Part shown: positions 12,339-41,132 of the stretch, one piece after another | How positions within the stretch are numbered: the first letter of the stretch is position 1 | How the letters are laid out: the number at the start of each line of letters is the position of its first letter | Virus record (IMG/VR): IMGVR_UViG_3300046656_000727 | Coordinates: 1 to 46,530 of that record | Length of the DNA: 46,530 nucleotides | Reading direction: 5' to 3' (one strand) | Origin: a virus | Translations under genes and position numbers: made by a program | The notes under the pieces: model-generated | Databases searched by the model: none | What the model was told of the DNA's origin: nothing | What the model saw: only the letters and a program-made list of their open reading frames with translations

Positions 12339-12704
12339 TCAGGTCTGCTCGTTCGCGGAGAGCGCGTGGTACTCCGCCTTGATCTCGCCCTCGGAGCTCT
12401 CGCCCTCCCAATCGCCGTGCCCCCAGGCGTTGCGGAAGCTGACGCTCTTGCCGTTCGCCAGCTGCAGCACGATCGTCGCGTCCTGCACCTGGTTCTCGAC
12501 CTTCAGGTCGAAGAGCAGCGAGTCGGAGAGCAACAGCGAGAGGACGCACGGGGATGGCTTCTCGGAGAACCCGTGCACCGCGTCCTGGCCGACGACGTCG
12601 TCGCGCATCTTGCCGCCGATGCGGTAGGTGGCGACGCCCTTCACGTCCTTCTGGACGCCGTTGACCGAGAGGAAGGCGATGCCGCCGCGACGCGCGATGC
12701 CCAT
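12339..12704 (-). CDS. Tail tube protein (Mu gpM-like)
   Basis: 121 aa with AGGAGA before the ATG. The sequence begins MGIARRGGIAFLSVNG, then YRIGGKMRDDVVGQDAVHGFSEKP, then a beta-rich half, as in the Mu gpM tail tube family (about 118 aa). It follows the sheath gene by 33 bases, the standard order. It polymerises into the inner tube through which DNA passes. Confidence 0.92.
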   Translation of the reverse strand: MGIARRGGIAFLSVNGVQKDVKGVATYRIGGKMRDDVVGQDAVHGFSEKPSPCVLSLLLSDSLLFDLKVENQVQDATIVLQLANGKSVSFRNAWGHGDWEGESSEGEIKAEYHALSANEQT

Positions 12705-12737: not shown

Positions 12738-14216
12738 TTACAGCCGGAACTGGATCTGGGCGGCGATGATGTAGAGCGGGTTCGCGACGTTGATCGGGAG
12801 CAGGCAGTCGATGCGCGTCGGGTCGCTCGCGTTCACCACGACGATCAGGTCGCGCTTGAACTGGTCCGGATCCTCGACCAGGCCGATCTCCTTCCAGTCG
12901 TCGAACAGGCAGAGGATCTCCGCCTTCACGATCGCCGGCGACACGATCGGCTGCGCGCTGCCGGGACGGATGCCGTCCTTCACGACCTTGTGGCGCGGGT
13001 AGCGGAGCAGCATGCGCTCCCGGAACGACCAGCGCAGGTAGGACAGCGTGTCGACCGTCGTCGTGTCGAGGTACGACGCGTCCGCGGCGCCCGACCCGCT
13101 CTTCTGGTAGGTCGTGATCGTGCGGTCGATCACCACCTGGTTCCCGATCACGACGTTCGGAGTCATGCCGCTGCGGTAGAGCTGATCGCGCTGCGCGAAC
13201 CCGTAGCGGTCGGGGACGATCGGCGGGCTGATCCCGAAGAGCGGCAGCGATCGAAGCGGCCGCGCGGGGTCGTTGCGCGAGTAGAAGCTGCGGTTCGCGC
13301 CGTAGGCCGCGGCGATCTCCCACGGAGGATCGAGCGCGCCGCGCGTCGCCATGATCGAGATGAACTTCGAGTTGTAGAGCGCGCCGAGTGCCAGCGCCGT
13401 CGCGAGGTCGGTGTTCGCCGCCATCACGGCGCTGCCCTCGAGCTGCACCGTCGGTCCCCAGCGACGCGCGAGCTCAGCGTCGATCGCGACGACGTTCGCG
13501 TTCGCCGCGTAGGGGATGATCATCAGGTCGAACTGGACTTCGCCGACCGCGGTCCAGAGCGACGTACCCGTCGTCGGGTCGGTCGTTCCGCCAGAGAGCA
13601 CGCCGGGGACGTTCGACAGCGCGACGCCCTGCGGGAGGTTTTCACCGTCGTTGTAGTTGACGCGGACGTCGATCTGCGTGCCGGAGAGCCCCTTGTTGCG
13701 CGCCGTGAAGAGCACGTGCGTCGTCGACACGACCGACGCGACGACCGGGCAGCCATCGGTTGCGTTCACCGCGGCCACGATGCTCGCCGCGATCGTCGCC
13801 GCCGTGTCGCCCGCCGCGACAGCAGCGGTGATCCTGTAGCCGGCGACGTAGAGGAAGACCGTGCCCGCGAGCACGGAGGACGCGGTGACCGTGCTGTCGA
13901 GCGTCGCCGCGACGCTGCCGCCCGCGTCGTCGAGCGCGATCGCGGTGACGTCGAACACGTGCGGGTTGGCGAAGAACGCGATCGCCATCCCGTGCAGCAT
14001 CGATCCCGCGCCGAACCACAGGCGCGCCTGGTCGACGCTCTGCAGCGCCTTGGGGACGAACTGCGCGACGGTGCCGGTGCTGAGCCGCTGGCCCACCATC
14101 AGCACCTTCCAGGGCTTGATCTGCGCGCCACCGATCGCCTTCGACGAGTCGACCTCGGTCAGCACGCTCGGGACGCGGACGTCGGCCGGGATGTCGTTGA
14201 AACCGATGGAGTCCAT
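12738..14216 (-). CDS. Contractile tail sheath protein (Mu gpL-like)
   Basis: 492 aa, close to Mu gpL. The N-terminus carries FNDIPADVRVPSVLTEVDSSKA and PWKVLMVGQRL, the gpL signature that starts the sheath handshake arm. An Ig-like variable insert lies at about residues 80-200; the C-terminus has LSYLRWSFRERMLLRYPRHKVVKDG and IIAAQIQFRL, the conserved end. A GGAGGGGG ribosome binding site precedes the ATG. This gene establishes the virion as a myovirus. Confidence 0.95.
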   Translation of the reverse strand: MDSIGFNDIPADVRVPSVLTEVDSSKAIGGAQIKPWKVLMVGQRLSTGTVAQFVPKALQSVDQARLWFGAGSMLHGMAIAFFANPHVFDVTAIALDDAGGSVAATLDSTVTASSVLAGTVFLYVAGYRITAAVAAGDTAATIAASIVAAVNATDGCPVVASVVSTTHVLFTARNKGLSGTQIDVRVNYNDGENLPQGVALSNVPGVLSGGTTDPTTGTSLWTAVGEVQFDLMIIPYAANANVVAIDAELARRWGPTVQLEGSAVMAANTDLATALALGALYNSKFISIMATRGALDPPWEIAAAYGANRSFYSRNDPARPLRSLPLFGISPPIVPDRYGFAQRDQLYRSGMTPNVVIGNQVVIDRTITTYQKSGSGAADASYLDTTTVDTLSYLRWSFRERMLLRYPRHKVVKDGIRPGSAQPIVSPAIVKAEILCLFDDWKEIGLVEDPDQFKRDLIVVVNASDPTRIDCLLPINVANPLYIIAAQIQFRL

Positions 14217-14259: not shown

Positions 14260-17200
14260 CTAGTCGGCGTCGAGGTCCACTTCATCCTCGGCCCGCAGCA
14301 CGGTCGAGCCGGCGAATCGCCACTTGCCGTCGATCAGACGCAGGTCGGATGCGTTCGGCGGGATCTCGTCCACGCTCAGGTAGGTCCGCGCGATCCATTC
14401 CTGGCGGGCCACCATCACCGTCCGGCCGCGGCCGGCTTCGCCCCATGCGTAGGACGTCCGCTCGTACCAGAAGCGCGCCGCGCCGGTCTCCGCATTGCGC
14501 GTCGCGAGCAGGATGAAGACGCTCTCCGAGAACTGGTCGAGGCGATCGTCGCCCTTCATGGTCCGCGGCTCGGCCGACAGGCACTCGACGGCGATGCGGG
14601 TGTCGAGCTGATACTCGCGCGGCGCCTCGGTGAAGATCCGGGCGTGGTCCTCGAGGGTATAGATGCCGATGGCCGGGAGCTCGGTCGATTCCCAGGCCTC
14701 CGCCCGGTTCGTGTAGACGCGCGCGCCCGCGGCCGTGGCGCCCAAGAGCAACTGCTGGATCGCGCGGCGGACGTTGTCCCCGACGCTGCTCGAGATGATC
14801 ACCGATGGCGCGTGGCTCGTGATGAACAGCGCCGCCGTCGGCGGCGAGACCGTCGTCTCCCCCTGCGGAGGAATCCGCGGCGGGAACGAGGTGATCGTGA
14901 GCGCCCCGGCCGGCGGATAGACGGTCTTCGAGACGAGCGGGCGGCTGCGGTTCGTCAGGAGCGGCGCGGAGGGCGGGAGCGCCGAGATCACCACGCGCGG
15001 CGTCTTGGGCGTCAGCGTGAGCGCCGCGGCCGGCGGGAGCACCACCTTGCCGGGCACCGGCGCGGCCGGCGTCAGGAGCAGCTGCGCGCGCGGCGGCGCC
15101 ACCACGACCTGGCCCGAGTTGCTGGCGATCGGAGCGAACGTCGTCAGCACCAGCGGCGCGGACGGCGGCCGGGCGACCTTCACGACGACCGGGCGCTGTC
15201 CCGCGAGCGCCATGAGGCGGCGGCCGGGGATGGCGATCTTCTGCACCCGCGGCGCCTGCGGGGTCAGCGTCAGCGCGCCGGCGGGCGGTCGCGTCGTGAT
15301 CGAGACGAGAGGCGTCGATCGCGTGATCGTCAGCTGCGCGGACGGGGGCTTCGCCAGCGCCGGGTCGAGCGCGAAGAACTCGTAGGCCCCGATGTCGAGC
15401 TCGAGGTCCTCGTCGCTGCGCGCGCGCTCAGTGATGTCGCGGTAGACCTCGGGCGTGTCCTCGCCCGCGTCGATCCACGGGCTCGTCGCCTGGAGGTGGA
15501 AGTCGCCGGTGCCGAAGTTCACGAAGAGCGGGTCGACGCCGAAGAGCGCGAGCGGGCGCGCCCCCGCGTCGAATCCAGCAGCCTGCCATTGGACGAATGT
15601 CTTGTGGCTGTCGTTGAAGACGAATGCGTAGTCGGTCGAGGTCGTGATCAGCGGGTCGTAATAGGCGTTCCCGACCAGCGTGCAGTACAGGTAGTCGTCC
15701 TGCGTGCTCTGCGATCCCTGACCGAGCTGAACGAGATGGCTGTCGCCGCCGCCGCCGGGCACGCTGTTCGACTTGTGGATTCCGTTCCCGATGAAGCGCA
15801 GCGAGCGCACGCCGTTCGTACAGATCGCCTGGTTCGTCGCGCCGACGATCGTATTGAAGATCGTGTCGACGCCCTGCGTGCGCTCGTCGAGGTGCGTCTG
15901 GTGGCTGTGCCCGTAATAGATCCCGATCGTGCAATCGACGATCAGGTTGTTCTTCACGACGCCGCGATTCAGGTACTGCGCGTTCAGGCCGGTGTGGCCG
16001 TTGCGGCAGTCGTTCGCCTCGAACCAGGCGTCCTGCGCCTCACTCGACCCGTCGACCGATCCGTTGCTGCCGATCGAGACGCAGCTGTTGCCGCCGCCCC
16101 GGAAGGTGTTGTGCATCAGGACGAACTTCTGGCAGCCGGAGAGCAGCAGCGCGTCGATGACGCCGTTGTTCTCGGTGTCGAAGGTGCTCCCGCGGATCTC
16201 GAGCAGGTCGCCGTGGATGTAGGCGTTCGTCGCGCGGCCCGCCGAGTTGCCGTGGCAGTTCGCGTTCAGGATCCCCATCCAGAGGTTCCGTCCGAACCCG
16301 CTCGAAATGCCCATCCCTCCGCCGCCGGGGTGCCCGCCCGCGCCGGTCGCCTCGCAGGCGTCCCAGGTGATCATCACCGTCTGCTCGTTCGCGTCGGTCC
16401 CCTCGAACGTGCCGTTCGTCACCTTGCAGCGCAGCAGGTTCGTTCCGTGCGACGTCGCGCCGAATCGATAGTCGCTCTTGTTGTCGTCGGTGTTCGCCGT
16501 GGCCCAGCGCACGTCCCAATCCTCGACGTGGACGAATCGCCCCCACACGTCGGGCTCGGACCAGTGGCCGTCGTTCCCTCGGAACAGCCACTCGCCCGTC
16601 GCAACGTCGATGATCGGCGCCGCGCCGCTGCCGTAGGTGCCGCAGATCGACGGCACCGGGAACCGGCCCGCGTCGCCGAGGAGGCCCGGCCCTGCGTAGG
16701 CGTAGTGCTGGTCACGCTTGAGCGCGATGCGGACGGGCGACGCCTTCGTCGTGATCGTGCTGCCGACCGCGAAGGCGTGCAGCACCGTCTTGAAGGCAGT
16801 CGCCTCCGTGAGCCCGTTGTCTGCGTCGTCGCCGGTCGCGGTGTCGACGAGCAGCGTCGTCCCCGACCACGCGAGGAAGGTCTTCTTGATCGCGACCTGG
16901 TGGTAGGCGCGGCTCGAGGTCCTCACCTTCAGCGTCGGGTACTTGTCGCCGGCGGCGTCGTATCGATGTGACGCGATCGGCCCGTGCGTGTTCGGGGACC
17001 CGTCGCCCCAGGTCCACTCGTAGTCGACGATCTTCTGGCCGAAGGGACAGATCGAAGCGTAGGCGTGGAATCGGACGTAGGAGTATCCCGCGAAGAGGTA
17101 GGTGTCGGCGACGAGGTTCCCGAGGCCGTCGTCCACCAGCGGCTGCGTGATCACTGCCGTCGGGCCGGCCAGGTCGAGGGCGAACTCGAGCAGGTTCTCA

Positions 17201-18546
17201 ACGCCGTCGCCGTTGCGGTCGGTGATCCCGTCCGCGGCGCTGTTCTTGTTCAGGCCGTGCGCGTCCTCCCAATCGTCGGGCATCCCGTCCTGGTCGGTGT
17301 CGAGGCGCGTCGGACGCGAGAGCATCGTTTCGTAGCCGCCGACGTCGTCCTGCGAGTCGATGATGAGCCCGAGGCCGAGCAGAATCTGCGCGAGCACGCG
17401 CTCGTCGTGCGCGTCGCGGAACGGGCGCGAGCATCCCACCGACCAGAGGATCTGCGGCACCTCGGACGTCGGCCGCGTCGGACCGTGCGGGAATGCAAAC
17501 TCGCTCGAGGCGCGGAACGTGTGCGCCCCGTGGACCTCGGGGACTTGCGCGCCGCCGCCGGTCCGCATGAAGAGCCACTGGTCGAATCCAGGGTCGGTGA
17601 CGAACGTCCCGAAGTACGGGCCCCAGTTTCCGGAGAGCCATGCGACCATGCCCGGATCGGTCGTCGTGTCGACGTCGGGGCTGACGACGATCCACGAGAA
17701 GAATGCCGGCGAGGTCGAGTTGGGGCCCGGCACCCAGATGCAGTTCACGATGTTCAGGCGCTTCAGGCCGGCCTTCTCGATTTCGCACGGCGCGCCGGCG
17801 GTCGTGCCGTCGCCGGTGCGGCTGCCCCAGTTGCCGAAGATGCAGTTTCGAATGTCGATCTGGTCGCAGTAGGCGATCTGCGGGTTGCGCGCGTTGCAGC
17901 TCCACACGACGCATTCGTAGAGCGAGATCGCGTAGGACGGGAATCCCGGGTCGCCCGATCCAAAGAGCACGCCCATCGAGTGGATGCTGCCGTCGAGCAG
18001 CGTCTTCGAATGCTGCGAGTGTCCGAGCGCCTCGTAGATCAGGCAGGCGTGGATCGTGATGTTGTAGGCGCCGAACCAAGTCGTGCAGCTCTCGTCGATC
18101 GCCCAGCTCATCGAGCAGTGGAAGATGTAGATGTCGTGCGTGTTCGGCGTGCCGGAGACGTCGCTCGGCTGGCCGAAGTTGAAGCAGTCGACCAGGTCCG
18201 CAGTCTCCGGCCAGTCGCCGACGTCGCCCGGACGGAAGCGCATGAACATGATCACGATGTCGTGCGACTGCGCGGTCGAGTAGTCGCCTCGCACCGTGAT
18301 GCCTTCGCCGGGCGCGGTCTGGCCGAGGATCGAGCAGAACGGGTGTTTGATCTTCAGCGGCGAGTGGATCGTGATCGTGCCGTCGATGTCGAAGACGATC
18401 GTGCGCGCGCCGTTGTAGTCGATGGCGAAGCGCAGGCTGCCCGCGCCGGTGTCGTTCAGGTTCGTGACGTGGATGCAGACACCGCCGACGCCACCCACGG
18501 CGTTGCGGCCGAATCCTTCGGCGGTTGGGAACGCGAGCGCCGGCAT
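14260..18546 (-). CDS. Giant pectate-lyase/PKD/beta-helix protein with C-terminal tail-terminator-like domain, 1428 aa
   Basis: Domains in order: pectate-lyase-type right-handed beta helix (about 1-360; starts LAFPTAEGFGRNAVGG and HVTNLNDTGAGSLRFAI); DTDQDGMPDDWE calcium-binding motif and helix (414-460); PKD-like domain with EWTWGDGSPN (480-560); second beta-helix domain beginning LLVDTATGDDADNGL (565-1058); nine proline-rich repeats of about 20 aa of type PPxxALxLT...P (1065-1250); and a terminal domain (1254-1410) with VRRAIQQLL, ELPAIGIYT and VDEIPPNAS. The terminal domain resembles phage tail terminators and is shared with the 1188-aa protein. The gene lies directly upstream of the sheath, where Mu carries its terminator. 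The first part likely binds or cleaves polyuronate or a similar glycan. Substrate unknown. Confidence 0.85.
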   Translation of the reverse strand: MPALAFPTAEGFGRNAVGGVGGVCIHVTNLNDTGAGSLRFAIDYNGARTIVFDIDGTITIHSPLKIKHPFCSILGQTAPGEGITVRGDYSTAQSHDIVIMFMRFRPGDVGDWPETADLVDCFNFGQPSDVSGTPNTHDIYIFHCSMSWAIDESCTTWFGAYNITIHACLIYEALGHSQHSKTLLDGSIHSMGVLFGSGDPGFPSYAISLYECVVWSCNARNPQIAYCDQIDIRNCIFGNWGSRTGDGTTAGAPCEIEKAGLKRLNIVNCIWVPGPNSTSPAFFSWIVVSPDVDTTTDPGMVAWLSGNWGPYFGTFVTDPGFDQWLFMRTGGGAQVPEVHGAHTFRASSEFAFPHGPTRPTSEVPQILWSVGCSRPFRDAHDERVLAQILLGLGLIIDSQDDVGGYETMLSRPTRLDTDQDGMPDDWEDAHGLNKNSAADGITDRNGDGVENLLEFALDLAGPTAVITQPLVDDGLGNLVADTYLFAGYSYVRFHAYASICPFGQKIVDYEWTWGDGSPNTHGPIASHRYDAAGDKYPTLKVRTSSRAYHQVAIKKTFLAWSGTTLLVDTATGDDADNGLTEATAFKTVLHAFAVGSTITTKASPVRIALKRDQHYAYAGPGLLGDAGRFPVPSICGTYGSGAAPIIDVATGEWLFRGNDGHWSEPDVWGRFVHVEDWDVRWATANTDDNKSDYRFGATSHGTNLLRCKVTNGTFEGTDANEQTVMITWDACEATGAGGHPGGGGMGISSGFGRNLWMGILNANCHGNSAGRATNAYIHGDLLEIRGSTFDTENNGVIDALLLSGCQKFVLMHNTFRGGGNSCVSIGSNGSVDGSSEAQDAWFEANDCRNGHTGLNAQYLNRGVVKNNLIVDCTIGIYYGHSHQTHLDERTQGVDTIFNTIVGATNQAICTNGVRSLRFIGNGIHKSNSVPGGGGDSHLVQLGQGSQSTQDDYLYCTLVGNAYYDPLITTSTDYAFVFNDSHKTFVQWQAAGFDAGARPLALFGVDPLFVNFGTGDFHLQATSPWIDAGEDTPEVYRDITERARSDEDLELDIGAYEFFALDPALAKPPSAQLTITRSTPLVSITTRPPAGALTLTPQAPRVQKIAIPGRRLMALAGQRPVVVKVARPPSAPLVLTTFAPIASNSGQVVVAPPRAQLLLTPAAPVPGKVVLPPAAALTLTPKTPRVVISALPPSAPLLTNRSRPLVSKTVYPPAGALTITSFPPRIPPQGETTVSPPTAALFITSHAPSVIISSSVGDNVRRAIQQLLLGATAAGARVYTNRAEAWESTELPAIGIYTLEDHARIFTEAPREYQLDTRIAVECLSAEPRTMKGDDRLDQFSESVFILLATRNAETGAARFWYERTSYAWGEAGRGRTVMVARQEWIARTYLSVDEIPPNASDLRLIDGKWRFAGSTVLRAEDEVDLDAD
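14797..15354 (-). repeat. Proline-rich PPxxALxLT repeat array inside the 1428-aa protein
   Basis: About nine degenerate copies of a roughly 20-residue unit, for example PPSAQLTITRSTP, PPAGALTLTPQAP, PPRAQLLLTPAAP, PPAAALTLTPKTP, PPAGALTITSFPP and PPTAALFITSHAP. Similar PPxGALxL units occur in other phage structural proteins. Here they form an extended linker of about 185 residues between the beta helices and the tail-terminator-like domain. Confidence 0.85.
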
Positions 18547-18568: not shown

Positions 18569-19000
18569 TCAGGTCAGCGTGTAGAGGCCCGCCGCGGCGA
18601 TCTCGACCTTGAGCTGCTGGCCGTCCGCGCAGGAGACGTCGACGTCCGCGGAGTCGAGCTTCGAGTAGCAGAGCACGTGGCCGCCGACCTCGTAGATCAC
18701 GGCCCATCGCGCGGAGAGCGGGCCGCCCGACGCGGTCCAGATGCCGTCGGTCGAATCGACGGTGAGCGTCGTCGTGCCCGAGAGGGTGATCGTGATCGCG
18801 GTGCCGCCGGCCGTGTAGCCGTTCGCCGCCGCGATCTCGCTCGTGGAGAGGCCGGACCAGAGCGTCGTCGTGGGGCTCGGCTGCGTGCCCGTGGACGCGT
18901 GCAGGGCCATCTTGAACGTGTCCGTGCCCGGGATCAGCGTCCCGTCCTGGAGCTTCGTCCGGCCCTCGTTCGTGAACGTCCACGTGGTCGCTGCGGCCAT
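18569..19000 (-). CDS. Small tail/fibre-associated protein, 143 aa
   Basis: AAGGGGAG precedes the ATG. The protein shows the pattern of a widespread phage family placed next to fibres: a beginning like TNEGRTKLQDGTL, then DTFKMALHAS, SEIAAANGYTAGG, DGIWTASGGPLSARWAVIYE and a final beta hairpin. It is probably an all-beta fibre attachment or capping protein. It is sandwiched between the glycine-rich fibre and the pectate-lyase fusion, supporting an adsorption role. No biochemical function is assigned. Confidence 0.75.
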   Translation of the reverse strand: MAAATTWTFTNEGRTKLQDGTLIPGTDTFKMALHASTGTQPSPTTTLWSGLSTSEIAAANGYTAGGTAITITLSGTTTLTVDSTDGIWTASGGPLSARWAVIYEVGGHVLCYSKLDSADVDVSCADGQQLKVEIAAAGLYTLT

Positions 19001-19037: not shown

Positions 19038-21977
19038 TCAGAAGAACGAGGTCACCGACACCAGACCGTGCGCGCCCGCGCCGCCGCCTTGCAGCGCAGC
19101 GTTCGTCCCGCCGCCGCCACCGCCGCCGCCAGGGAACCCGCCGTTGCCGGCGTGCGTCGCCGAGTCTCCGGCGCACCCGCCGCTGCCTCCGTAGGGCAGG
19201 CGCGTCGAGTCGGTGCCGTTCGCACCGGCCGCCGCCGCGGGCGCGTTCGCGCCGCCGCCGAAACCTCCGGCAGAGGCCGTGCCCGACGATCTGCCGCCCG
19301 CGCCCCCCCCGCCGCCGCGCGTCGACCACCCGTTGTTGACCGAGGTCGTGCCCGTGTCGGCGTCGGCGCCGGACTCGCCGCCGCCGCCGCCCCATTCCGC
19401 GGGCGAGCCGCCGGTCGGACCCGTCGTGCCAGAGCCGCCGCGGCCGCCGACGGCGCCGAGCGCCGCGCCCGCGGTCGCCGCCGTAAGGTCGATGCGGGTC
19501 GTGGCGACGGCGGGTGACGCCCGGCCGCGGCCCGACCCGCAGCCGCCATCGCCGCCGTCAGTGGAAATGGCACCGACCGCGGCGGTGCCGGCGATGCGGC
19601 GCGTCGAGGTGAGCGGACCGGCGCTGCCCTTGTCGAACTCGGAGAGGACACCGGCGTTGCCCGCCGTGCCATCGACGTTCGCCGTCGCGGCGCCGCCCTT
19701 GCCGGCGTGCACGGTGACCGTGACGCCGAGGTCGATCGGGTTGAACCATGCCTCGTCGTACCCACCGCCTCCGCCTCCGCCGCCGCCCGCAGCCGTCGCG
19801 GCCTGGCGCCCTGCCGATCCGGAGCCGCCGCCATCGACGATCGCGGCCAGGACGCGCGTGGCCTCGGTCGGCCGCGTCCAGGTGTCGTCGAGGTCGGCCG
19901 GACTGCCGATGAAGAGTTGCGTCTCGGACGGTCGCAGCGCGGAGGGCGCGTCGCGATTCGCCTTCACCGCCGGGATGAAGTGGATGCGCGTACAGAGGTC
20001 CGACGAGGAGTTGGCCCAGGTCACCGTCGTCGCGCCGATGCGCCCGCCCGCGCTCTGGCAGATGCCCGTCGACATGTAGAGGAATCCGCCGACGCCGTCG
20101 GTCGTGCCGTCGTCGAACTGCTCGGTGAGGCTCGTCAGGCTCGAGTTGGTCAGCGCGGACCCTTCGGCACTCGCGTTGTCGACGTTGCCCGCGAAAATGT
20201 CGCAGACGAGCGAGTTGTCGATGCCGGCGAACGAGACTGGGCTCGTGCCCGTCGTCGACGCCGTCGACTTCCAGTTGTTGTTTCCCCAATGGAACGGGTC
20301 GCCGGTCGTCGGGCAGCCGCGCACCGCGAACATGAATCCGTAGGTGTGATCGCCCGAGTCGCCGAGCGTCGGCGCCGACTCGCTGCCGCCGTCGCGCTTC
20401 CAGAAGATCGAGAGCTTCGAGCTGCCAGCCGCTCCCGCCGTTCCGAATCCGTTCTGCGGACCGATCTGCTTGTAGTTCGTCGGCGGCGGGATGTTCGATT
20501 CGTTCGCGGACTGGAGCACGAGCACGAGGATGTCGTCCGCGAGGTGCCCGGTCGGCAGCGTCGCGGTCGGCGTGCCCGTGCTCGAGAACTCCGCTGTGAC
20601 GCTCACGATCGTCGGCGCCGTCGGCGTGCGGACCGCGGCGTCACCGGCATCCATCTGCCCCTTGTTCACCGCGTCGCTCGCGGCGGCACCATCGGCGAGG
20701 CTCGTGATCTTGTTCGATCCCATCGATTGCGGGCCGGTGAAAGCGAGCGTGCCGTCCTGCTTGATGCGTGCGACTGCGAGCGTCGGGTTGGGGAAGGTCC
20801 CGGCGAGATCACCTCCTGCGGCTCCATTCGGCGCGCGTGAATCGGACAGGCGGCTGTCGTTGCCTGCACACGCCTGCGCAGCACCCGTGCCCAAGGTCCG
20901 CATCGACGGCGTGCCCGACGCGCCGTCCTTGTTGGCCGTGGCGACCTTCGCGTCAGTGACCGCGAGGGCATCGATCGTCGGGTTCGGATAGGTCCCGGTG
21001 AGGTCGCCGCCCGCAGCTCCGTTCGGAGCGCGGGAGTTCGACAGACGAAGATCATTGCCGGCGCATGCCTGCGCGGCGCCTGCGCCGAGCGTCCGCATCG
21101 ACGGCGTGCCCGACGCGCCGTCCTTGTTGGCCGTGGCGACCTTCGCGTCAGTGACCGCGAGCGCGTCAATCGTCGGGTTCGGATAGGTCCCGGTGAGGTC
21201 GCCGGCCGCAAGCCCGGTCGGAATGCGGGGGTTCGACAGGCGGCTGTCATTGCCCGCGCATGCCTGCGCGGCACCCGTGCCGAGCGTCCGCATCGACGCA
21301 GTGCCGCTCGCGCCGTCCTTGTTCGCAGCCGCGACCTTCGCGTCGGTGACCGCAAGGTCCGCAATCGACGGATTGGGGAACGTCCCCGTGAGGTCGCCGC
21401 CGGCCGCGTCGCCATCCATCACCGCCGCAGCTTCCACCGCCGCGTCGCCAGCATCGGAGTGGGAGTTCGCGTCGGCGAGCGCCGTCGTCGCGGTATTGAT
21501 GACGAAGTCCACGTTCGCGGCATCGGTCCCGACCGCCGGCGTCCCGACGTTCGTCGCCTTGTGCCCGCCGAAGGACTGGTCGCCCGTCAGCGCCGTCGTG
21601 CCGTCCTTCTTCAGCAGCGTGTTCCCGAGCGTCGTGTCGGCAGCAGTCGCGAAGCTCTGCGCGGCAGCCTGCGCGGCGGCAGCGGCCGCATCGAGCTGCC
21701 CTTTGTTCACGCCATCGCTCGACGCCGACCCATTCCCGAGGTTCGTCGCCTTGTGGCCGCCGAAGGACTGATCCGCCTCGAGCGGGACGGATCCATCCTT
21801 CTTCAGGGCGTTCGGATCGGACCCGCCGCCCGCGCCCTCGAGCGCGAGCGGGTGCCCGCCCGGCGTCACGCCGTCGTGGACGACGATGGTGTGCTTCGTC
21901 TCGTCGACGGTGACCTCGCGGTCGGCTCCGACGAAGGGCCCGGTGGGGCCGCCGCGCAGTTGGACCTGCTTCGTCAT
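19038..21977 (-). CDS. Long tail fibre with repeat shaft and glycine-rich adhesin tip, 979 aa
   Basis: The ATG at 21977 overlaps the stop of the 1188-aa gene (ATGA); upstream in-frame codons lie inside that gene. Residues 1-45 (QLRGGPTG...REVTVDETKHTIVVHDGVTPGG) are the small N-terminal attachment module seen in Mtd-like fibres. LKKDGSVPLEADQSFGGHKATNLGNG-type units follow, then about three copies of a 65-residue repeat (residues 190-395, with AAGGDLTGTYPNPTI), a beta domain (about 435-690), and a C-terminal tip (about 710-979) packed with Gly runs such as GGGGGGGGG. Glycine-rich tips forming polyglycine-II sandwiches are known in S16 gp38-type adhesins. Likely role: receptor binding. Confidence 0.85.
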   Translation of the reverse strand: MTKQVQLRGGPTGPFVGADREVTVDETKHTIVVHDGVTPGGHPLALEGAGGGSDPNALKKDGSVPLEADQSFGGHKATNLGNGSASSDGVNKGQLDAAAAAAQAAAQSFATAADTTLGNTLLKKDGTTALTGDQSFGGHKATNVGTPAVGTDAANVDFVINTATTALADANSHSDAGDAAVEAAAVMDGDAAGGDLTGTFPNPSIADLAVTDAKVAAANKDGASGTASMRTLGTGAAQACAGNDSRLSNPRIPTGLAAGDLTGTYPNPTIDALAVTDAKVATANKDGASGTPSMRTLGAGAAQACAGNDLRLSNSRAPNGAAGGDLTGTYPNPTIDALAVTDAKVATANKDGASGTPSMRTLGTGAAQACAGNDSRLSDSRAPNGAAGGDLAGTFPNPTLAVARIKQDGTLAFTGPQSMGSNKITSLADGAAASDAVNKGQMDAGDAAVRTPTAPTIVSVTAEFSSTGTPTATLPTGHLADDILVLVLQSANESNIPPPTNYKQIGPQNGFGTAGAAGSSKLSIFWKRDGGSESAPTLGDSGDHTYGFMFAVRGCPTTGDPFHWGNNNWKSTASTTGTSPVSFAGIDNSLVCDIFAGNVDNASAEGSALTNSSLTSLTEQFDDGTTDGVGGFLYMSTGICQSAGGRIGATTVTWANSSSDLCTRIHFIPAVKANRDAPSALRPSETQLFIGSPADLDDTWTRPTEATRVLAAIVDGGGSGSAGRQAATAAGGGGGGGGGYDEAWFNPIDLGVTVTVHAGKGGAATANVDGTAGNAGVLSEFDKGSAGPLTSTRRIAGTAAVGAISTDGGDGGCGSGRGRASPAVATTRIDLTAATAGAALGAVGGRGGSGTTGPTGGSPAEWGGGGGESGADADTGTTSVNNGWSTRGGGGGAGGRSSGTASAGGFGGGANAPAAAAGANGTDSTRLPYGGSGGCAGDSATHAGNGGFPGGGGGGGGTNAALQGGGAGAHGLVSVTSFF
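20800..21400 (-). repeat. 195-bp tandem repeats in fibre shaft
   Basis: About 3.3 units with a period of 195 bp (65 codons). The units near 20968-21165 and 21166-21360 align along their length, and a block of more than 50 bases starting at 20911 recurs unchanged at 21106. The unit encodes GDLTGTYPNPTIDALAVTDAKV, then NKDGASG, then GNDSRLS. Near identity at DNA level indicates recent duplication or gene conversion. Confidence 0.85.
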
Positions 21978-24900
21978 GGCTCGGTGCTCCCCCAATCCTC
22001 GGACTCGTCCGGAGGATCCACAGTACTGCCCCAATCCTCGGACTCGTCTGCGACGACCGCCGTCGATCCCCAATCCTCAGACTGGATCGGCGGCACGCCC
22101 TCGCCCTCGCCGACGATCGGGATCACGCCGACGACCTGCGACAGCGTCGACGCATCCGGCGGGATCTCGTCGATGCGCGAGTAGTAGCGATAGGTGAATC
22201 GGACGCGGGAGGCGAAGACCACGCGCGCCCCCTCGGCGCGCACGGTCGTCGTCTGGCCGGTGTACCAGCTGCGCGCCGCGGTCCCGCGCGCGCCCTCGTC
22301 GAGCATCAGCGCCGCGCGGACCTGGCGGACCATCACCTCGATCGCGTCGTCGCCGTTCTTCCGGCCCTCCTGGCCGACGATCGCCTCGATCACGAGCGAC
22401 ACTTCGCGCTCGTACTCGAAGGGCGCCTCTAGGTTGAGGCGCGACTCCTCCGCCGGCGTGTAGACGCCGATCGCAGGGAGGTCGATCTCCTCCTCCCACG
22501 GGTCGACGCGGTTCGGGAAGACGCGGTCGCCGGCGTCGGTCGCCCCCTTCAGGATCTCGACCACTGCGCCGCGGATTCCTTCGCGGGTCTGTGGCACCTC
22601 GAGCTCGGGCGTGACCACCGCCGCCGCGACGCGGACGAAGACCACTCCGAACGGCGGCACCGCGTCGACGACGACGATGCCCGTGTCGGGCTCGAGCGTC
22701 GCGCCGACGTCCGAGACTGCGCCGAGCGCGTCGACCACCTCGAGCGCGATCTGGTCCTCGAATCCCGCCGCCGCGATCGCGTCGGAAAAGTCCCCCGCGA
22801 ATCGGGCGGTGTCGCCGGTCCAGTTGTGCAGCACGATCAGCAGCGTCGAGTCGACGCGGCTCTGCCAGACCGAGTTCAGGACCTTCGGGAAGGCTGCCCG
22901 GTCGTAGAGGACGTCGTAGCTCACGTACTGGCCGGTGTAGAAGGAATCGGCATAGCCCGTGGTCGTGTCGGACGTCTCGACGTCGACGTGCGCCGGCGGC
23001 AGGAAGCGCCCATAGGGGATGTAGTCGCGGAAGGTGATGAGCCCGCGATTCACCGCGACCCACTGGTCGCGCAGCTGGCGGACGGTGTTGCTGACGGTGC
23101 CGCCGTTCTCGATGTACTGCGCGTCGTCGAAGAAGTCGAGCCCGCTGCCATTCACGTCATCGAACCAGGTCGAGAGCGCCGGCATCGTGAATCCGTAGAC
23201 CCACTCGGCGAGCTCGTAGGCCATCGTCGCGTGCAGCACGGCGTCGGTCTTCGGCGGCCCGAGCCCGACCGGGCTCACGCTCGCGAGCGCGACCGTCGAG
23301 AGCTCGTGGTTCAGCGCGCGCCCGAAGACGCGACCGGCGTGCACGACCGAATAGAGCGGGACCGCCTTGCACCCGTGGATCGTCGGGTCGACTCCGTGCA
23401 TCACCCGGAAGAGGTCGCCGGCGCCGTTCCCGTGCCAGCAGAAGTCGATCGCGTCGTGCATCGTCTCGTCGACGTCTTCTCCCGACAGGAGAAACGCGAC
23501 CTTCCCGGTGAGATCGAACTGGCGCTGGCGCGCGGCGTCGCGATGCGCCTTCACGAGCGTGTGGTTCGCCTCGACGTACCAGCGGCCGCCGCCGAGCGGG
23601 TGGCGCTGATAGCCCGGCGCGATCCCTGCCCACCCCGAGTGGTCGCGGAAGCAGAACTCCTGCGCGACGAACGTCTGCTTGATCGACGGGGTCGTCTGGA
23701 CGTCGAGGTAGCTGTGGCAGTTGTGGCCCTTCTCGAATGGCGCCGCGGTCGCGTTCTCGACGAAGCGCGCGAGCAGCGTGGACGAATGCGCCATCGCGTC
23801 CGGGCAGTACGCATCGAGGGCGAATGGCACCTCGAACTGCTGGAACTCGGATCCCGCAGACCACACGGCGACCTGGTCGCCCGCCTGCGGGATCACTGCG
23901 GCGCCCGTCGCGTCCGCGAAGTTCCCGGTGGTCACGAGCTGCCCGTTCCCGAGCGACTGGACGCGCGTCGTGGCGAGCCGCGCCGCTCCGGAGATCGGGA
24001 TCAGGGTCGCGACCATCGTCGACACGAATCCCGAATCCGCGCCCGGGTTGCCGGTGATCGAGAGCGTTCTCGTCAGCGCATTCCACCCGGTGACGGGATA
24101 GATGCGCTCGTGGTAGTAGGCGCCGCCGCCCTGCTCGACGAGGCGATCCGATCCGCCGCCCTCGAGCGCCCCGCGGCGCGACTGCCGGAAGGAATCCACG
24201 ACGAGGTTCGTGGTCCACCAGCGCAGCTCGTCGCCCGCCCAGCGATGGATGTCCCAGGGGTTCGGTCCAATGATCCCGGGCTGCCAGACGCCGCCGAAGC
24301 TGTTCTGCTGGAACATCAGGTCGAGCGTCGATCGAAGATCCCCGATCTCGAGCTCGAACGGCAGGTAGATGTTCTGCTGCAAGACCTCGAACACGCTGAA
24401 CGACGGCGGCGGGTCGCCGGGTCGCACGGCATTGCGCGCATTCATCTGCAGCGCCGCGACCGGCGCCGAGCTGCCGTGGTAGGCCGCCATCACCGCGTCG
24501 AGGAAGAGCCACGGGCCGCGCTCGAAGCTCGACAGGTCGATGCGGTCGATCCGCTTCGGGATCAGGATCGACGGCGCGACGAGCTGCTGGCGGCGCCGGT
24601 AGTGCTCGCCGAAGCTCGCCCAGCCGTGGTAGCCGACCTGCATCGGGCGCAGACAGAAGTCCGTGATGCCGAGCGCGCGCCCGCCGTTCCCGACGACGAT
24701 CGAGTCCTCGCACGGGACGCTCGCCTGCCAGAGCAGGTTCGCGCCGTCGCTCTGGAAGAGGACGGAGAATGGCGTCCGGTCCCATCGCTCCGTCCAGACC
24801 ATCCATCCCTCGCGCGCCGCGCGCGAGTAGTACCCCCACATGCCGATCGGCGCGCCGCGCCCGGTCGGATAGGTCCAGGCGTTCCAGATGAAGTTTCCGA

Positions 24901-25540
24901 ACGTCGCCGACGGCCGCCCGCTGCCGGGGTTGTATCGGAGTGTCTCGACGGGGTCCTGCGCGAGGATGCCCGTGACGTTCGGGAGCACGGCGAAGTCGGA
25001 TCCGCGGTCGCGCGGAGCGATGCGCAGCGGCAGGACGCGGAAGGAGTCGATCGCGTAGCGCGCCGGCGTGCCGATCCACGCGAACGCGATCGCGCAGCGC
25101 AGCCAGTCCTCGCCCGCGCGCAGCTCGAGCGTCATCGTGACGTCGAAGCTGTCGACGCCGTCGATCGTATTCCCCGCCCAGAGGATCGTGATCGCGGACG
25201 CCGTCGAACTCTCGACCGAGAGGTTGTTCGGGGACGGCATGACGACGCTCGTCTGCAGCGGGTTGGCCTGCGTGCAGTCGAAGACCGTTGCGGACCAGAG
25301 ATCGGTGTCTGCCTGCGCCCACGTGCTGACGGGCAGCCCCGACTCGAGGCGCTCCATCGAGACCAGGCGGAACCCCGCGACGGTGTCGCGCTTGAACGTG
25401 AAGCGCGCGGACGCGTTCTCGAGGACATAGGTCGTCGCCGGCGCGGCGATCACGAATCGGTGCGGGACGCCCCACCCGACGCGGCCCGTCGGCGGCCGCA
25501 TCGCCCACGACTTCGCCGAGCGATTGCGCGTCACGAACAT
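21974..25540 (-). CDS. Giant glycoside-hydrolase-like protein with C-terminal tail-terminator-like domain, 1188 aa
   Basis: The N-terminal part (about 20-330) is beta-rich with the layout of the mutarotase-like sandwich that precedes TIM barrels in large glycosidases; the middle (about 340-850) has barrel-like alternation with aromatic and acidic patches (LDAYCPDAMAH, FCFRDHSGWAGIAPGYQ, DAIDFCWHGNGAGDLFR); a beta sandwich follows (about 890-980, LLIVLHNWTGD). This resembles DUF6259-type glycoside hydrolases, judged by pattern. Residues 987-1140 form a domain with IRGAVVEILKG, DLPAIGVYT and IDEIPPDAS, related to the end of the 1428-aa protein and to tail terminators of the lambda gpU type. The last 35 residues contain SEDWGST three times. 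Start at 25540 chosen by fit to the preceding stop; Met14 is an alternative. Confidence 0.8.
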   Translation of the reverse strand: MFVTRNRSAKSWAMRPPTGRVGWGVPHRFVIAAPATTYVLENASARFTFKRDTVAGFRLVSMERLESGLPVSTWAQADTDLWSATVFDCTQANPLQTSVVMPSPNNLSVESSTASAITILWAGNTIDGVDSFDVTMTLELRAGEDWLRCAIAFAWIGTPARYAIDSFRVLPLRIAPRDRGSDFAVLPNVTGILAQDPVETLRYNPGSGRPSATFGNFIWNAWTYPTGRGAPIGMWGYYSRAAREGWMVWTERWDRTPFSVLFQSDGANLLWQASVPCEDSIVVGNGGRALGITDFCLRPMQVGYHGWASFGEHYRRRQQLVAPSILIPKRIDRIDLSSFERGPWLFLDAVMAAYHGSSAPVAALQMNARNAVRPGDPPPSFSVFEVLQQNIYLPFELEIGDLRSTLDLMFQQNSFGGVWQPGIIGPNPWDIHRWAGDELRWWTTNLVVDSFRQSRRGALEGGGSDRLVEQGGGAYYHERIYPVTGWNALTRTLSITGNPGADSGFVSTMVATLIPISGAARLATTRVQSLGNGQLVTTGNFADATGAAVIPQAGDQVAVWSAGSEFQQFEVPFALDAYCPDAMAHSSTLLARFVENATAAPFEKGHNCHSYLDVQTTPSIKQTFVAQEFCFRDHSGWAGIAPGYQRHPLGGGRWYVEANHTLVKAHRDAARQRQFDLTGKVAFLLSGEDVDETMHDAIDFCWHGNGAGDLFRVMHGVDPTIHGCKAVPLYSVVHAGRVFGRALNHELSTVALASVSPVGLGPPKTDAVLHATMAYELAEWVYGFTMPALSTWFDDVNGSGLDFFDDAQYIENGGTVSNTVRQLRDQWVAVNRGLITFRDYIPYGRFLPPAHVDVETSDTTTGYADSFYTGQYVSYDVLYDRAAFPKVLNSVWQSRVDSTLLIVLHNWTGDTARFAGDFSDAIAAAGFEDQIALEVVDALGAVSDVGATLEPDTGIVVVDAVPPFGVVFVRVAAAVVTPELEVPQTREGIRGAVVEILKGATDAGDRVFPNRVDPWEEEIDLPAIGVYTPAEESRLNLEAPFEYEREVSLVIEAIVGQEGRKNGDDAIEVMVRQVRAALMLDEGARGTAARSWYTGQTTTVRAEGARVVFASRVRFTYRYYSRIDEIPPDASTLSQVVGVIPIVGEGEGVPPIQSEDWGSTAVVADESEDWGSTVDPPDESEDWGSTEP
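21980..22081 (-). repeat. Triple SEDWGST repeat at the C-terminus of the 1188-aa protein
   Basis: The motif SEDWGST occurs three times, separated by short acidic/proline linkers (AVVADE and VDPPDE). At DNA level the sequence ccccaatcctcggactcgtc and close variants recur. The repeat sits after the terminator-like domain and ends two residues before the stop. Short acidic-aromatic repeats like this may be docking peptides; nothing else identifies their role. Confidence 0.9.
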
Positions 25541-25553
25541 GCGGGAGCGACCC

Positions 25554-26306
25554 TCACGCGGCGAGCGGGATCTCGATCGGGAAGTCGCGGCGGAACGCCT
25601 TGCCCTTGTAGTTGAACGTCACCCGCGCGTTGATCGCGCGCGCGCCCGTCAGCCCGAGCATCGGCTTGGTGAAGTAGACGTTCCCGTCCGCGCCCTCGTG
25701 CAGGTCGGCGCCGGAGATCTGGACGATGTTCGGGATGGTGAGATCGCTCAGCTGGATCGTGAGCGCGGTGACGACCGTCGTGCGCCCGCCCGACGCGCCG
25801 ACGGCGGTGACCGGGAAGTCGAGGAAGTCCTTCGACCACCAGCGATGGATCGACAGGCAGCCCGTGATCTGCGGAGCGTCCGAGGGGCCGACGCTCGGCA
25901 GGATCGCCAGCTGCACGTCGAGCTCGCTGCGGACCTGGTAGGTCATCAGCAGCGGATTGAACTCGGCGCCGACCGGCTGGATCTTCAGCATGCAGTCGCC
26001 CTCTTCGGAGAGGTCGACGTCGTGCCCGCCCGAAACGCCCTCGCCCCAGAGCACCATCCGGTACATGCCGTCGCCACCGAGCGTGAGCGTCAGGTTCGGC
26101 GGGGACGCGCTCTTCACGTGGATGATCCCCGAGGGAAGGATCACCGTGGCGATCACGTGCGCGGGGTCGAGGTTCGTGCCGGTGACGCCGCCGGTGTAGG
26201 GGACGCCAGTGACGGGATCGGTTAGCTGGAAGACGACGAACTCGAAGCCGCGGTAGTGGCGCTTGATGCCGGCGTTGAAGACGCCGCCCGGAGAGAGCGT
26301 GCTCAT
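25554..26306 (-). CDS. Hypothetical structural protein, 250 aa, beta-rich
   Basis: No family recognised. Sequence is beta-rich: FEFVVFQLTDPVTGVPYTGG, HVIATVILPSGIIHVKSA, YRMVLWGEG, then a C-terminal half with TIPNIVQISGADL and ARVTFNYKGKAFRRDFPIEIPL. No membrane segments, no cysteine cluster. It sits between the connector candidate and the 1188-aa protein, spaced 13 bases from each. A role in the neck or in anchoring the large appendages is inferred from position. Two Ig-like or jelly-roll domains would fit the length. Confidence 0.6.
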   Translation of the reverse strand: MSTLSPGGVFNAGIKRHYRGFEFVVFQLTDPVTGVPYTGGVTGTNLDPAHVIATVILPSGIIHVKSASPPNLTLTLGGDGMYRMVLWGEGVSGGHDVDLSEEGDCMLKIQPVGAEFNPLLMTYQVRSELDVQLAILPSVGPSDAPQITGCLSIHRWWSKDFLDFPVTAVGASGGRTTVVTALTIQLSDLTIPNIVQISGADLHEGADGNVYFTKPMLGLTGARAINARVTFNYKGKAFRRDFPIEIPLAA

Positions 26307-26318
26307 CGAGACCTCCGC

Positions 26319-26654
26319 CTACTCGTCCCAGGCGAGGTCGCACATCGCCATGCCCTCGCCGTCCTTCTCGACCTTCACGACGACGAAGAACTGGTGCACG
26401 GGGACCGACGCCTGGACCGGGATCTCGATCTTGTCCTCGCGCGCGAGGTCGCCGCCCGGCATGTCCGCCAGCACGACGTCGAGGCGGGGCTTGTCGATCA
26501 TCACCGGCACCTGCGTGTCGGCGTCGATGCCCTGGTGCTTCGCCTGGAAGATGCCACGAAGGCCGGCGGTGGCTGACCCGCCGGCCCTCGTGACGACGAT
26601 CTGCAGTCCGTAGACCTCGACGTTCGTTCGCTGCACGACGTCGAAGTAGCCCAT
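26319..26654 (-). CDS. Putative head-tail connector protein, 111 aa
   Basis: A small beta-rich protein: VEVYGLQIVVTRAGGS, then RGIFQAKHQGIDADTQVPV, DVVLADMPGGDLAREDKIEIPVQ and FFVVVKVEKDGEGM. Placement after the decoration protein, and a pattern like lambda gpFII-type joining proteins (strand-rich, with a ...D.I.I......F.V.......G pattern), suggest a head completion or head-tail joining role. Homology is not certain. Confidence 0.6.
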   Translation of the reverse strand: MGYFDVVQRTNVEVYGLQIVVTRAGGSATAGLRGIFQAKHQGIDADTQVPVMIDKPRLDVVLADMPGGDLAREDKIEIPVQASVPVHQFFVVVKVEKDGEGMAMCDLAWDE

Positions 26655-27130: not shown

Positions 27131-29227
27131 TCAGGCGCCGGGCGACTTGTAGAGACCGCGGAACTCGATCGGCGCGACGCCGAAGTCGTGGATGACGCGG
27201 TAGAGGATGCCGTCGAACTTCGCCTCGTAGAACGACTGCACCGACGGCCCGTTCCCTCCCGTCAGGTAGGAGTGCTCGAGCATGTCGGTCATGCCGAGGT
27301 CGCCGGCGAGATACCAGGCGGTCGCCGAGTTGGCGTCGAGCAGCGGCTCGACGATCACCTTCAGCAGGCCCTGGAACGGCGACACGCCGGAGACGGCGGA
27401 CGGGGTCACGGTCGCGACCACGTTCTTGTACGCGGTCGTCTCGAGCGCGGCCGGGACGATCAGGTAGCGCGGCTCGATGTTCAGGATCGTGCCGTCGGGG
27501 TCCGTCTGCTTGCGCATCGCGGTGCGCGCGATCGTGAGCGAGGACTCCTGAAGCGCCGAGCCGGCGCCGGAGGCCTGGAGGTTGAGCCGCGTCGCCGCCG
27601 TGCTGAACAGCGCGACGCCGTCGCCCATCGTCGGGTTGCCGGTGATCACGGCCCAGGCGAGGTAGTTCTCCTTGATCGCCGCGCGCCGGCCCATGATGCC
27701 GGGGATGCGATCGAAGGCGCTCGCGTCGTCGTTGATGATCAGCCTGCGCGTGAGGCCCATCAGCTTGCCGTAGCTGGTGATCGCGTAGCTTTCCTTCGAC
27801 TCGGCGAGGTTCGAGTACTCGAGCTCCCCGTTGTCCTGGATCTCCTTCAGGTCCGAACCGAGGCCGGTCTGCACGCGGCTCATCGGCTTGAAGTCGGCCG
27901 CGGTGTTCTCGCGCGAGATCGCCTTGTAGGTCGGCGCCGCCGCCATGTACTCCTGGCGCAGCTTCTTCGCAGCGACGTTCTCCGTGATCTTCGGGAAGTC
28001 GCTCGCAGCGAACGCGAGCGCGCGCGTGGCGATCGCGTTCGGGGACATGTCCTCGAGGTCGCGCCCGCCGTTGGCGACGCGCACGCACTCCTCGGCGAGG
28101 CGCAGCAGGTTCATGCCGCGGAATCGCTTCGAGGCGTCCGTCGCCTTGTCGCGCGCGACCACGCCGGCTCGGATCAGGAGGGCCTCCTCGACGCCGGCGC
28201 GCACGTGGTCGCGCGCTTCGTCGCCGAGTCGGATGTGGCCGTTCGTGGACGGCTTCTGCTTCTTGCGCTGCTCATCGAGGATCGCGCGACCCGCGCCCGC
28301 GACGGAGATGTCGCGCGTCACGAGGTCGGCCGCGAACGCGTCGTCGAGGCCCGCCGCCCGGCAGTCGAGCTGGATGTTCTCGATGCGCTCGCGCTCTTCC
28401 TTCGCGATCGCTGCGCGGTCGAGCGTCGCGGTGGCCGCCGTCGCGCGCGTGGCCGCGGCGTCGTTCGCCGAGCGCGTCGCGAGTGCCGCGGCGTCCGCGG
28501 TGGCCTTGTCGGCGACCGCCTTGTCGGATGCGGCCTTGTCGTCGGCGGCCTTCTTGGCCGCGAGTTCCTCTGGAGTCATCGAGGCATCCCTCCCCTGATT
28601 GGCCGCCGCGCTGGACGATCCAGACGCCTCGGATCCTATCACGCGACACTCGAAAGTCGTTTCGGACGCGGACCGGACCCCGCTGTTGGGGTCGGCGCCG
28701 ATCGGCGTCATCGTGACCTCTTGCGGCACCCACTTCGTCGCGCGCAGCGTCGACGTCTCGTCGCCCTTCCGCGTCTTGTCCTCGTAGAGGTCGACGCGGT
28801 AGCCGACGCTGACCTGGCGCAGGATCCCCGCGGCGATGTCGGCGCGGATGCCCTCCATCGCCTTCTCGTCGCGCGCGCTGAGCTTCACGCGGGCGACCGC
28901 CATGCGGACGCCGTTCTTCTCGATCACCTTCGCGTTCAGCACGACCCCGATCTGCGGGCGCGAGAGGTCCGAGCGTGCCCAGGACTGGTCCTTGCCGTGC
29001 ACGTAGAGCAGGGGCCCGCCGGCGTTCAGCCAGGAGAAGTCGTACTCGCCGTCCCGGAGCCCCAGGACCTCGTTCACGATCTCGCCGTCGACCCGCATCT
29101 GGACGGGCGTCTCGGTGGCGAAGACGACGTCGAACTCCCCGGTCGCCGGGTCGAAGCTCGAAGGGCCGACGCCCCCCGAGCGGCAATGGAGGTCGAGCTG
29201 CAGCACCGCGGGGAGGGGCTTACGCAT
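27131..29227 (-). CDS. Prohead protease / major capsid protein fusion, 698 aa
   Basis: The ATG at 29227 overlaps the portal stop by eight bases; an in-frame ATG at 29266 lies within the portal gene. Residues 1-190 are an HK97-type prohead serine protease (S78): VHGKDQSWARSD with likely catalytic His77, and ILRQVSVGYRV with likely Ser140, then PQEVTMTPIGADP. Residues about 195-300 are a charged/Ala-rich coiled-coil linker suited to be a scaffold (delta-domain-like). The capsid part is about 350-698, with SDFPKITENV, KPMSRVQTG, LTRRLIINDD and EPRYLIVPAALE. Fusions of this kind are known. The protease presumably cleaves between the domains after assembly. Confidence 0.9.
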   Translation of the reverse strand: MRKPLPAVLQLDLHCRSGGVGPSSFDPATGEFDVVFATETPVQMRVDGEIVNEVLGLRDGEYDFSWLNAGGPLLYVHGKDQSWARSDLSRPQIGVVLNAKVIEKNGVRMAVARVKLSARDEKAMEGIRADIAAGILRQVSVGYRVDLYEDKTRKGDETSTLRATKWVPQEVTMTPIGADPNSGVRSASETTFECRVIGSEASGSSSAAANQGRDASMTPEELAAKKAADDKAASDKAVADKATADAAALATRSANDAAATRATAATATLDRAAIAKEERERIENIQLDCRAAGLDDAFAADLVTRDISVAGAGRAILDEQRKKQKPSTNGHIRLGDEARDHVRAGVEEALLIRAGVVARDKATDASKRFRGMNLLRLAEECVRVANGGRDLEDMSPNAIATRALAFAASDFPKITENVAAKKLRQEYMAAAPTYKAISRENTAADFKPMSRVQTGLGSDLKEIQDNGELEYSNLAESKESYAITSYGKLMGLTRRLIINDDASAFDRIPGIMGRRAAIKENYLAWAVITGNPTMGDGVALFSTAATRLNLQASGAGSALQESSLTIARTAMRKQTDPDGTILNIEPRYLIVPAALETTAYKNVVATVTPSAVSGVSPFQGLLKVIVEPLLDANSATAWYLAGDLGMTDMLEHSYLTGGNGPSVQSFYEAKFDGILYRVIHDFGVAPIEFRGLYKSPGA

Positions 29228-36286: not shown

Positions 36287-36540
36287 GCGCCCGCCAATAC
36301 GCGCTGGCCGCGTGCCCCGGCTGCCGCCGGCCGAAGTACGACTGCGCCTGCCCGCCGGAGATGGCCTGCACGAGCTGCGAGACGACGGACCACACCGTCG
36401 CGCGCCGCTTCGACAAGCACGGCATCTACGTCTCGCGGTACTGCGATCCGTGCTGGGCGAAGAACGACCCGGGCGACTACGACGACTCGGGCGAGGTGAT
36501 CGAACCGGAAGCGGACTCTTCCGGCGACGGCCTCGCCTGA
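36283..36540 (+). CDS. Small Cys-rich protein, 85 aa
   Basis: ATGA overlap with the previous gene. Residues 9-60 contain nine cysteines in CPGCRRPKYDCACPP, ACTSCETTDH and RYCDPCW, consistent with two zinc sites. The tail is acidic (DDSGEVIEPEADSSGD). Not recognised; it precedes the exonuclease gene by 62 bases. Confidence 0.7.
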   Translation: MSARQYALAACPGCRRPKYDCACPPEMACTSCETTDHTVARRFDKHGIYVSRYCDPCWAKNDPGDYDDSGEVIEPEADSSGDGLA

Positions 36541-36602
36541 ACCCCCTGTTGGTGGCGGGCGCGGGACCTCCAACCGCGCCCGCCTTTCATGGAGTTCCGT
36601 TC

Positions 36603-41130: not shown

Positions 41131-41132
41131 CG

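Follow-up and report, generated by a model that had tools for sequence, protein, structure and literature searches.

The window analysed here is the whole of a 46.5-kb IMG/VR virus contig (46,530 nucleotides), which encodes a full Mu-like contractile tail cassette comprising sheath, tube, tape measure, hub and wedge proteins. Read on the minus strand from the head side, the genes follow the order capsid, cement, Hc1 stopper, a 250-aa protein, a giant fusion of 1188 aa, a 979-aa fibre, a 143-aa phrog_644 protein, a second giant fusion of 1428 aa, sheath, tube and tape measure (Table 1). The start of the fibre gene overlaps the stop of the 1188-aa fusion (ATGA). For the 250-aa protein, we found neither a convincing family match nor a counterpart among the first 80 relatives.

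Other parts of the window carry a DNA methylase joined in a single ORF to a weak ParB_N domain (N6_N4_Mtase, 41084-43096) and the RecT and YqaJ recombinases (37642-38841 and 36186-37637). Near the baseplate genes, a tail-fibre-like protein (4472-5689) contains a CBM_4_9 carbohydrate-binding domain, so that this phage would also have conventional sugar binding at the tail tip.

Table 1. Features of the neck interval of the window, and Hc1 fusions of related loci (positions in the window unless a locus is named)
Feature	Positions	Strand	Evidence or remark
Tail tube	12339..12704	-	phrog_185 2e-20
Tail sheath (Mu gpL-like)	12738..14216	-	phrog_165 9e-147
Giant fusion 1, 1428 aa: pectate-lyase-like arm, tail terminator at C-terminus	14260..18546	-	
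Sheath-joining C-terminal tail of terminator, residues 1390-1428	14263..14379	-	myophage-terminator tail profile
gpU-type tail terminator domain, residues 1252-1394 (~140 residues)	14365..14793	-	AF2, Foldseek, HMM
Linker of nine proline-rich repeats, residues ~1067-1251	14794..15348	-	read directly from sequence
Second beta-helix, ~residues 565-1057	15376..16854	-	NCBIfam NF041518 9e-6; weak NosD
PKD domain, residues 482-546	16909..17103	-	Pfam PKD_4 3.9e-5 (slightly below curated cut-off); ColH PKD
Calcium-binding-type motif DTDQDGMPDDWE...DRNGDG, residues 416-448	17203..17301	-	sequence
Pectate-lyase-like beta-helix, residues 5-433	17248..18534	-	phrog_27797 E 1e-38; PelZ E 5e-32 (far under equivalog cut-off); PDB 9buj E 7e-24
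143-aa protein, function unassigned	18569..19000	-	phrog_644 1e-18
Fibre protein, 979 aa from ATG at 21977	19038..21977	-	Mtd_N-like start, repeats
Giant fusion 2, 1188 aa: DUF6259-like arm (tentative), tail terminator at C-terminus	21974..25540	-	
Atypical C-tail of fusion 2, three DWGST repeats, without sheath-joining tail	21977..22162	-	tail profile
Second gpU-type terminator domain, residues 982-1126	22163..22597	-	phrog_4204 4e-9; phrog_6774 1e-10
N-terminal part of fusion 2, tentatively DUF6259 (glycoside-hydrolase-like)	22616..25441	-	PF19773, hhalign
250-aa protein between stopper and terminator, family unassigned	25554..26306	-	
Head-closure stopper Hc1 (lambda gpFII-like)	26319..26654	-	PF05354 1e-9; phrog_82
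Fused head protease and major capsid protein	27131..29266	-	phrog_4523 1e-160; anchors the head side of the operon
Hc1 fusions	L146:40-2832; L149:56-2011; L113:1-1845; L130:3-1538		

The arms of the two giant proteins

A first-pass annotation of this DNA had described an uninterrupted frame of 1428 codons, and this frame is real, although it runs on the minus strand. Its in-frame GC3 is 87-98% in 14/14 blocks of 100 codons and resembles that of the sheath, capsid and tape-measure genes. This uniformity indicates that the frame is one coding unit. Profile and sequence evidence also bears out the domain order proposed for it, from a lyase helix through a calcium motif, a PKD domain and a second beta-helix to nine proline-rich repeats. 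The lyase domain begins at residue 4-5 with no signal peptide ahead of it, unlike a secreted enzyme. SWAIDES at residue 147 aligns with SWSVDET of 9buj, and ARNPQ at 219 is a candidate for the catalytic arginine site. The two parts of the calcium motif, DTDQDGMPDDWE and DRNGDG, start at residues 416 and 443, respectively, and the second beta-helix terminates in a choice-of-anchor Q domain (residues 1013-1057).

The same annotation had described one armed terminator and overlooked the second giant terminator fusion of 1188 aa, whose in-frame GC3 is also 87-98% throughout. Its N-terminal ~980 residues are unrelated to the arm of the 1428-aa protein. Tentatively, this arm may be DUF6259-like, i.e. 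glycoside-hydrolase-like. The PF19773 match reaches an E-value of 0.001 with 12.7 bits against a cut-off of 28.7, and hhalign aligns the arm with DUF6259 over its N-terminal ~190 columns (probability 92.7, E 4e-7); the best-scoring frames of a phmmer comparison with DUF6259 loci point the same way. The AlphaFold2 model of this part was too poor for a structure search (pLDDT 39), and no relative of it was found in phages, plasmids, viral contigs or 294 genomes from the phylum of one surveyed locus, L167, whose record title reads Planctomycetota.

Two terminator domains in one neck interval

The last domain of the 1428-aa protein carries the motif R.AI..LL / NR / ELPAIGIYT at residues ~1258-1300 and had been taken for a tail terminator of the lambda gpU or Mu gp37 type. 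An AlphaFold2 model built from 38 window and locus sequences, the terminator fold being modelled for the 1428 copy only, reached a pLDDT of 86.3 and a pTM of 0.75. Lambda gpU was its top PDB match in Foldseek (E 5e-7, probability 1.00). The matches at E<=1e-3 were mostly annotated terminator, neck or connector structures, including those of T5, Mu, Milano and phage Chi, and the pyocin R2 terminator followed just past this limit (1.1e-3). At the sequence level, the phrog_4204 match is weak (E 0.03 for the whole protein, 1e-3 for the domain cut out), and a profile of relatives that itself includes the 1428 domain gives 7e-29. Neither terminator domain of the window was matched in a Pfam search. 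The sequences that group with the 1428 domain sit in the terminator slot of related phages. Because the fold, the alignment with the 1188 copy (see later in the text) and the slot of the related sequences agree, the last domain is almost certainly a tail terminator. It belongs to the gpU family, represented by PF06141, phrog_4204 and phrog_37, and the Mu gp37 half of the earlier assignment falls away: PF08873, the Mu gp37 family (phrog_490), matched neither domain at E<=10, whereas Mu gp37 itself scored 3e-17.

The alignment score of the 1428 and 1188 terminator domains is 232, compared with a mean of 33 (SD 5.6, maximum 63) in 500 shuffles, and the two are sisters with 99/95 support in a tree of 97 rows. 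The branch leading to the 1428 domain is 1.37 long and that leading to the 1188 domain 0.57; the 1428 domain evolves faster, and the better-conserved core lies in the 1188 copy. Both retain the core motifs LPAIG.YT, EAP.EY and GDD, which include the positions P43, P61 and D89, near-invariant when the family is aligned. A six-frame profile search of the whole record found no terminator other than these two copies. The discovery elsewhere in the genome of a separate terminator gene with strong homology had been named as an argument against the first-pass reading of the 1428-aa protein. Such a copy does exist, the 1188 domain scoring 4e-9, yet it is itself fused to a giant enzyme-like protein. 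Since it is also fused, the terminator of this phage corresponds to a pair of armed paralogues.

The two copies differ in what follows the core. In siphovirus-type relatives, terminators end directly after the core domain, whereas those of sheath-bearing relatives extend ~25-45 residues past it in a recurring pattern. In Mu (PMC11915804), XM1 (PMC10457771) and Milano (PMC10491603), the extended C-terminus of the terminator pairs with the top sheath ring. A profile of such myophage tails gives 13.1 bits with the C-tail of the 1428-aa protein (0/500 shuffles as good) and 1.4 bits with that of the 1188-aa protein (70/500). As the profile fits the former and not the latter, the 1428 copy looks like the sheath-engaging terminator.

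The gene order points to the same interval. In gpU-type sheath-bearing relatives, it comprises capsid, cement, Hc1, a stand-alone terminator of 168-212 aa, DUF2635 and sheath, and the window order (MCP, cement, Hc1, terminator slot, sheath, tube, TMP) is that of the relatives with a stand-alone terminator. Where these have a single small terminator gene, the window has two giant fusions together with a fibre gene and two further small ones, so that its terminator slot has been greatly enlarged. A DUF2635 gene is present in 5/5 relatives tested, and none was found in the window. The placement of the 1428 gene directly before the sheath gene holds, the fusion adjoining the sheath and carrying the myophage-type tail; the parallel drawn with Mu does not, for Mu has a DUF2635 gene in between.

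Taken together, we consider that both fusions are probably virion neck components, namely duplicated armed terminators that display arms of a glycan-active type covalently. A gpU-type terminator would have been duplicated, and both copies would have become C-terminal anchors of giant arms, of the pectate-lyase/PKD/beta-helix type in the 1428-aa protein and of a DUF6259 glycosidase-like type in the 1188-aa protein. One or more hexameric rings of terminator domains would cap the tail tube beneath the head-closure stopper, and the C-terminal strand of the 1428 copy would also reach into the uppermost ring of the sheath. Through the repeat linker, the N-terminal enzyme modules could project radially, so that up to six glycan-active arms would be held at the neck; polysaccharides of surfaces or matrix might be bound or cut by them, with the cell itself left to the baseplate fibres. 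A point against this reading is that the canonical terminator is a single hexamer, for which there are two candidate paralogues. Each copy could be half a terminator, the 1428 domain being fast and weak-scoring and the 1188 copy having no sheath tail.

Alternatively, there could be a division of labour, with just one copy capping the tail and its paralogue serving another purpose. The terminator might be the conserved 1188 copy, with the 1428-aa protein as a neck anchor contacting the sheath; or it might be the 1428-aa protein, with the 1188-aa protein in a second ring or elsewhere. The unequal branch lengths, the unequal profile scores (4e-9 versus 0.03) and the retention of the sheath tail by the 1428 copy alone are in accordance with this view. 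However, the three core motifs are kept by both copies, whose genes share the neck slot of one operon, and we regard such a division as rather unlikely.

Processing of the giant proteins, or a terminator made from an internal start, would leave a small terminator in the virion and the enzyme free. Nested starts and proteolytic maturation are known in phage structural genes, and the nesting of Mu I/Z is annotated. However, no ATG and no good ribosome-binding site was found ahead of either terminator domain, GTG codons being the only candidates, whereas the sheath gene and the full-length 1428 frame each have a GGAG-type site before their start, which makes this explanation improbable. It is still harder to see both proteins as enzymes released at lysis, with a terminator-like fold serving oligomerisation only. 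PHROGs does file the pectate lyases of phrog_27797 under moron, auxiliary metabolic and host-takeover genes, but these genes lie in the neck slot, one of them encodes a sheath-joining tail, and the phage must have a terminator, of which no other was found; we consider this very improbable.

Extended neck proteins in related phages

We surveyed 242 loci, in which 115 gpU-type ORFs were found. The only convincing giant fusions of this type were the two of the window, and a terminase-based scan of 79 further loci had the same outcome. In the surveyed relatives, the terminator is a stand-alone, single-domain protein of ~140-210 aa, compared with 1428 and 1188 aa in the window. No close relative with the fusions of the window emerged: judged by MCP, sheath and terminase, the best relatives are ~35-44% identical. 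Conservation of the fusions is thus unsupported, which counts against the reading as armed terminators. Neither single proteins nor a two-sequence alignment retrieved a close relative, and a twelve-sequence terminator alignment yielded no usable pattern.

Several candidates were rejected. N-terminally extended ORFs of terminators (L046, L062, L066-L068, L074, L173, L221, L316) and of gpS (L111, L156) proved to be false high-GC frames or overlaps with the upstream gene, and a 496-aa ORF that precedes the L119 sheath gene did not hold up when tested as a terminator. Such false extensions in high-GC relatives (L173, L221 and others) raise the idea that the window fusions are an assembly artefact or a false high-GC ORF as well, but their N-terminal parts, unlike the false extensions, have in-frame database homologues, their GC3 is uniformly high and the same event would be needed twice, so that we give this explanation practically no weight.

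A comparable architecture was observed for the neighbouring neck ring. In five contigs (L146, L147, L149, L113 and L130), Hc1 stands at the C-terminus of long adhesin-like proteins of up to 930 aa; as L146 and L147 are near-identical, these represent about four independent sequences. The proteins carry SIxSxEAFGxPT repeats (SI-S-EAFG), and their N-terminal modules are exchanged. Among the proteins with the N-terminus present, that of L146 has a DUF2341 domain and, after it, a stretch resembling a jelly roll, whereas L149 and, in part, L113 have a BspA-type leucine-rich region. A stand-alone terminator gene lies downstream of the Hc1 fusions. Moreover, gp37-type terminators of two loci (L110:5096-6316 and L181:8352-9614) have C-terminal extensions of ~210-240 residues, which are jelly-roll-like by eye and among which Pfam identifies none. 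A BFVD search with the terminator model matched a 404-aa 'DUF1566 domain-containing protein'. Armed neck rings are thus not confined to the phage of the window, and the form with an enzyme on the terminator is seen only in the window.

Further observations were made in the survey. About ten ORFs lie between the cement gene and the probable terminator of L081 (12546-19900), several of them resembling glycosyltransferases, other sugar-related or methyltransferase enzymes, which suggests that the neck genes are a hot spot for insertions. One contig has two sheath-like ORFs (L121:9304-10773 and 11533 onward). In L238 (10001-11293), whose title reads Thermoplasmatales archaeon, a sheath-like match at 24% identity hints weakly at a contractile tail or an injection system.

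Proposed neck display in this phage, and known systems

If the 1428-aa protein is in the virion, fusion of the terminator to a lyase-like arm implies an enzyme displayed at the neck. Virtually all such enzymes are known at the tail tip, and those of the window would instead be built into the neck. Six catalytic arms would then be attached by covalent linkage, with the enzyme copy number tied to the symmetry of the ring, and tail assembly would have to tolerate subunits of ~150 kDa in the capping ring. The twin copies also raise the direct question of mixed hexamers. The Hc1 fusions of relatives suggest that neck rings were armed more than once, which would make these rings a predictable place in which to look for domains that act in host range or on biofilms and that would be classed by annotation pipelines as stray enzymes or minor tail proteins. 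Going further, the neck rings (Hc1, terminator) of contractile-tailed environmental phages may perhaps serve as covalent, exchangeable display platforms, built of an N-terminal glycan-active or adhesive module, a repeat linker and a C-terminal ring subunit, with a mixed ring presenting two enzymes in this phage; for this generalisation, we hold the chances to be slightly short of even.

An enzyme fused to a tail terminator, or a virion of such a layout, was not found in the searchable open-licence literature, in agreement with the first-pass annotation, whose author knew of none. Described depolymerases reside in tail fibres or tailspikes, with one described exception, the pre-neck appendage pectate lyase Dpo7 of Staphylococcus phage IPLA7, which involves no connector fusion (reviewed in PMC5380687). 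According to the same review, the sole virion-associated lysin described at the neck is P22 gp4, a connector and muramidase of 18 kDa; it has no giant arm and is not a terminator.

The terminators of the lambda gpU / phrog_4204 type (Bordetella phage PY223, Roseobacter phages) have the same fold and occupy the same slot between head closure and sheath or tube. However, they are single-domain proteins of ~140-210 aa, whereas each copy of the window adds an N-terminal arm of ~980-1250 residues. The Hc1 fusions (L146, L149, L113, L130) from uncharacterised metagenomic contigs share with the window proteins the succession of an N-terminal adhesin-like module, a repeat linker and a C-terminal neck-ring protein, but their ring partner is the head-closure stopper and their terminator stands alone.

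The neck passage structures of lactococcal phages (TP901-1, 936) also have long arms at the neck, with glycosidase-like or carbohydrate-binding modules in their C-terminal parts (PMC4493119, PMC6669499). These are encoded by a separate gene, with an N-terminal collar-forming domain near portal and adaptor and no connector fusion. Likewise, gp40, the collar spike of Vibrio phage XM1 (PMC10457771), is tailspike-like, displayed at the neck and in contact with gp4 and the terminator gp5, but it is a trimeric product of a separate gene, held non-covalently through an N-terminal Ig-like domain. In both known cases a separate protein binds the neck by its N-terminal domain; in the window the arms are N-terminal, and the C-terminal anchor is the terminator itself.
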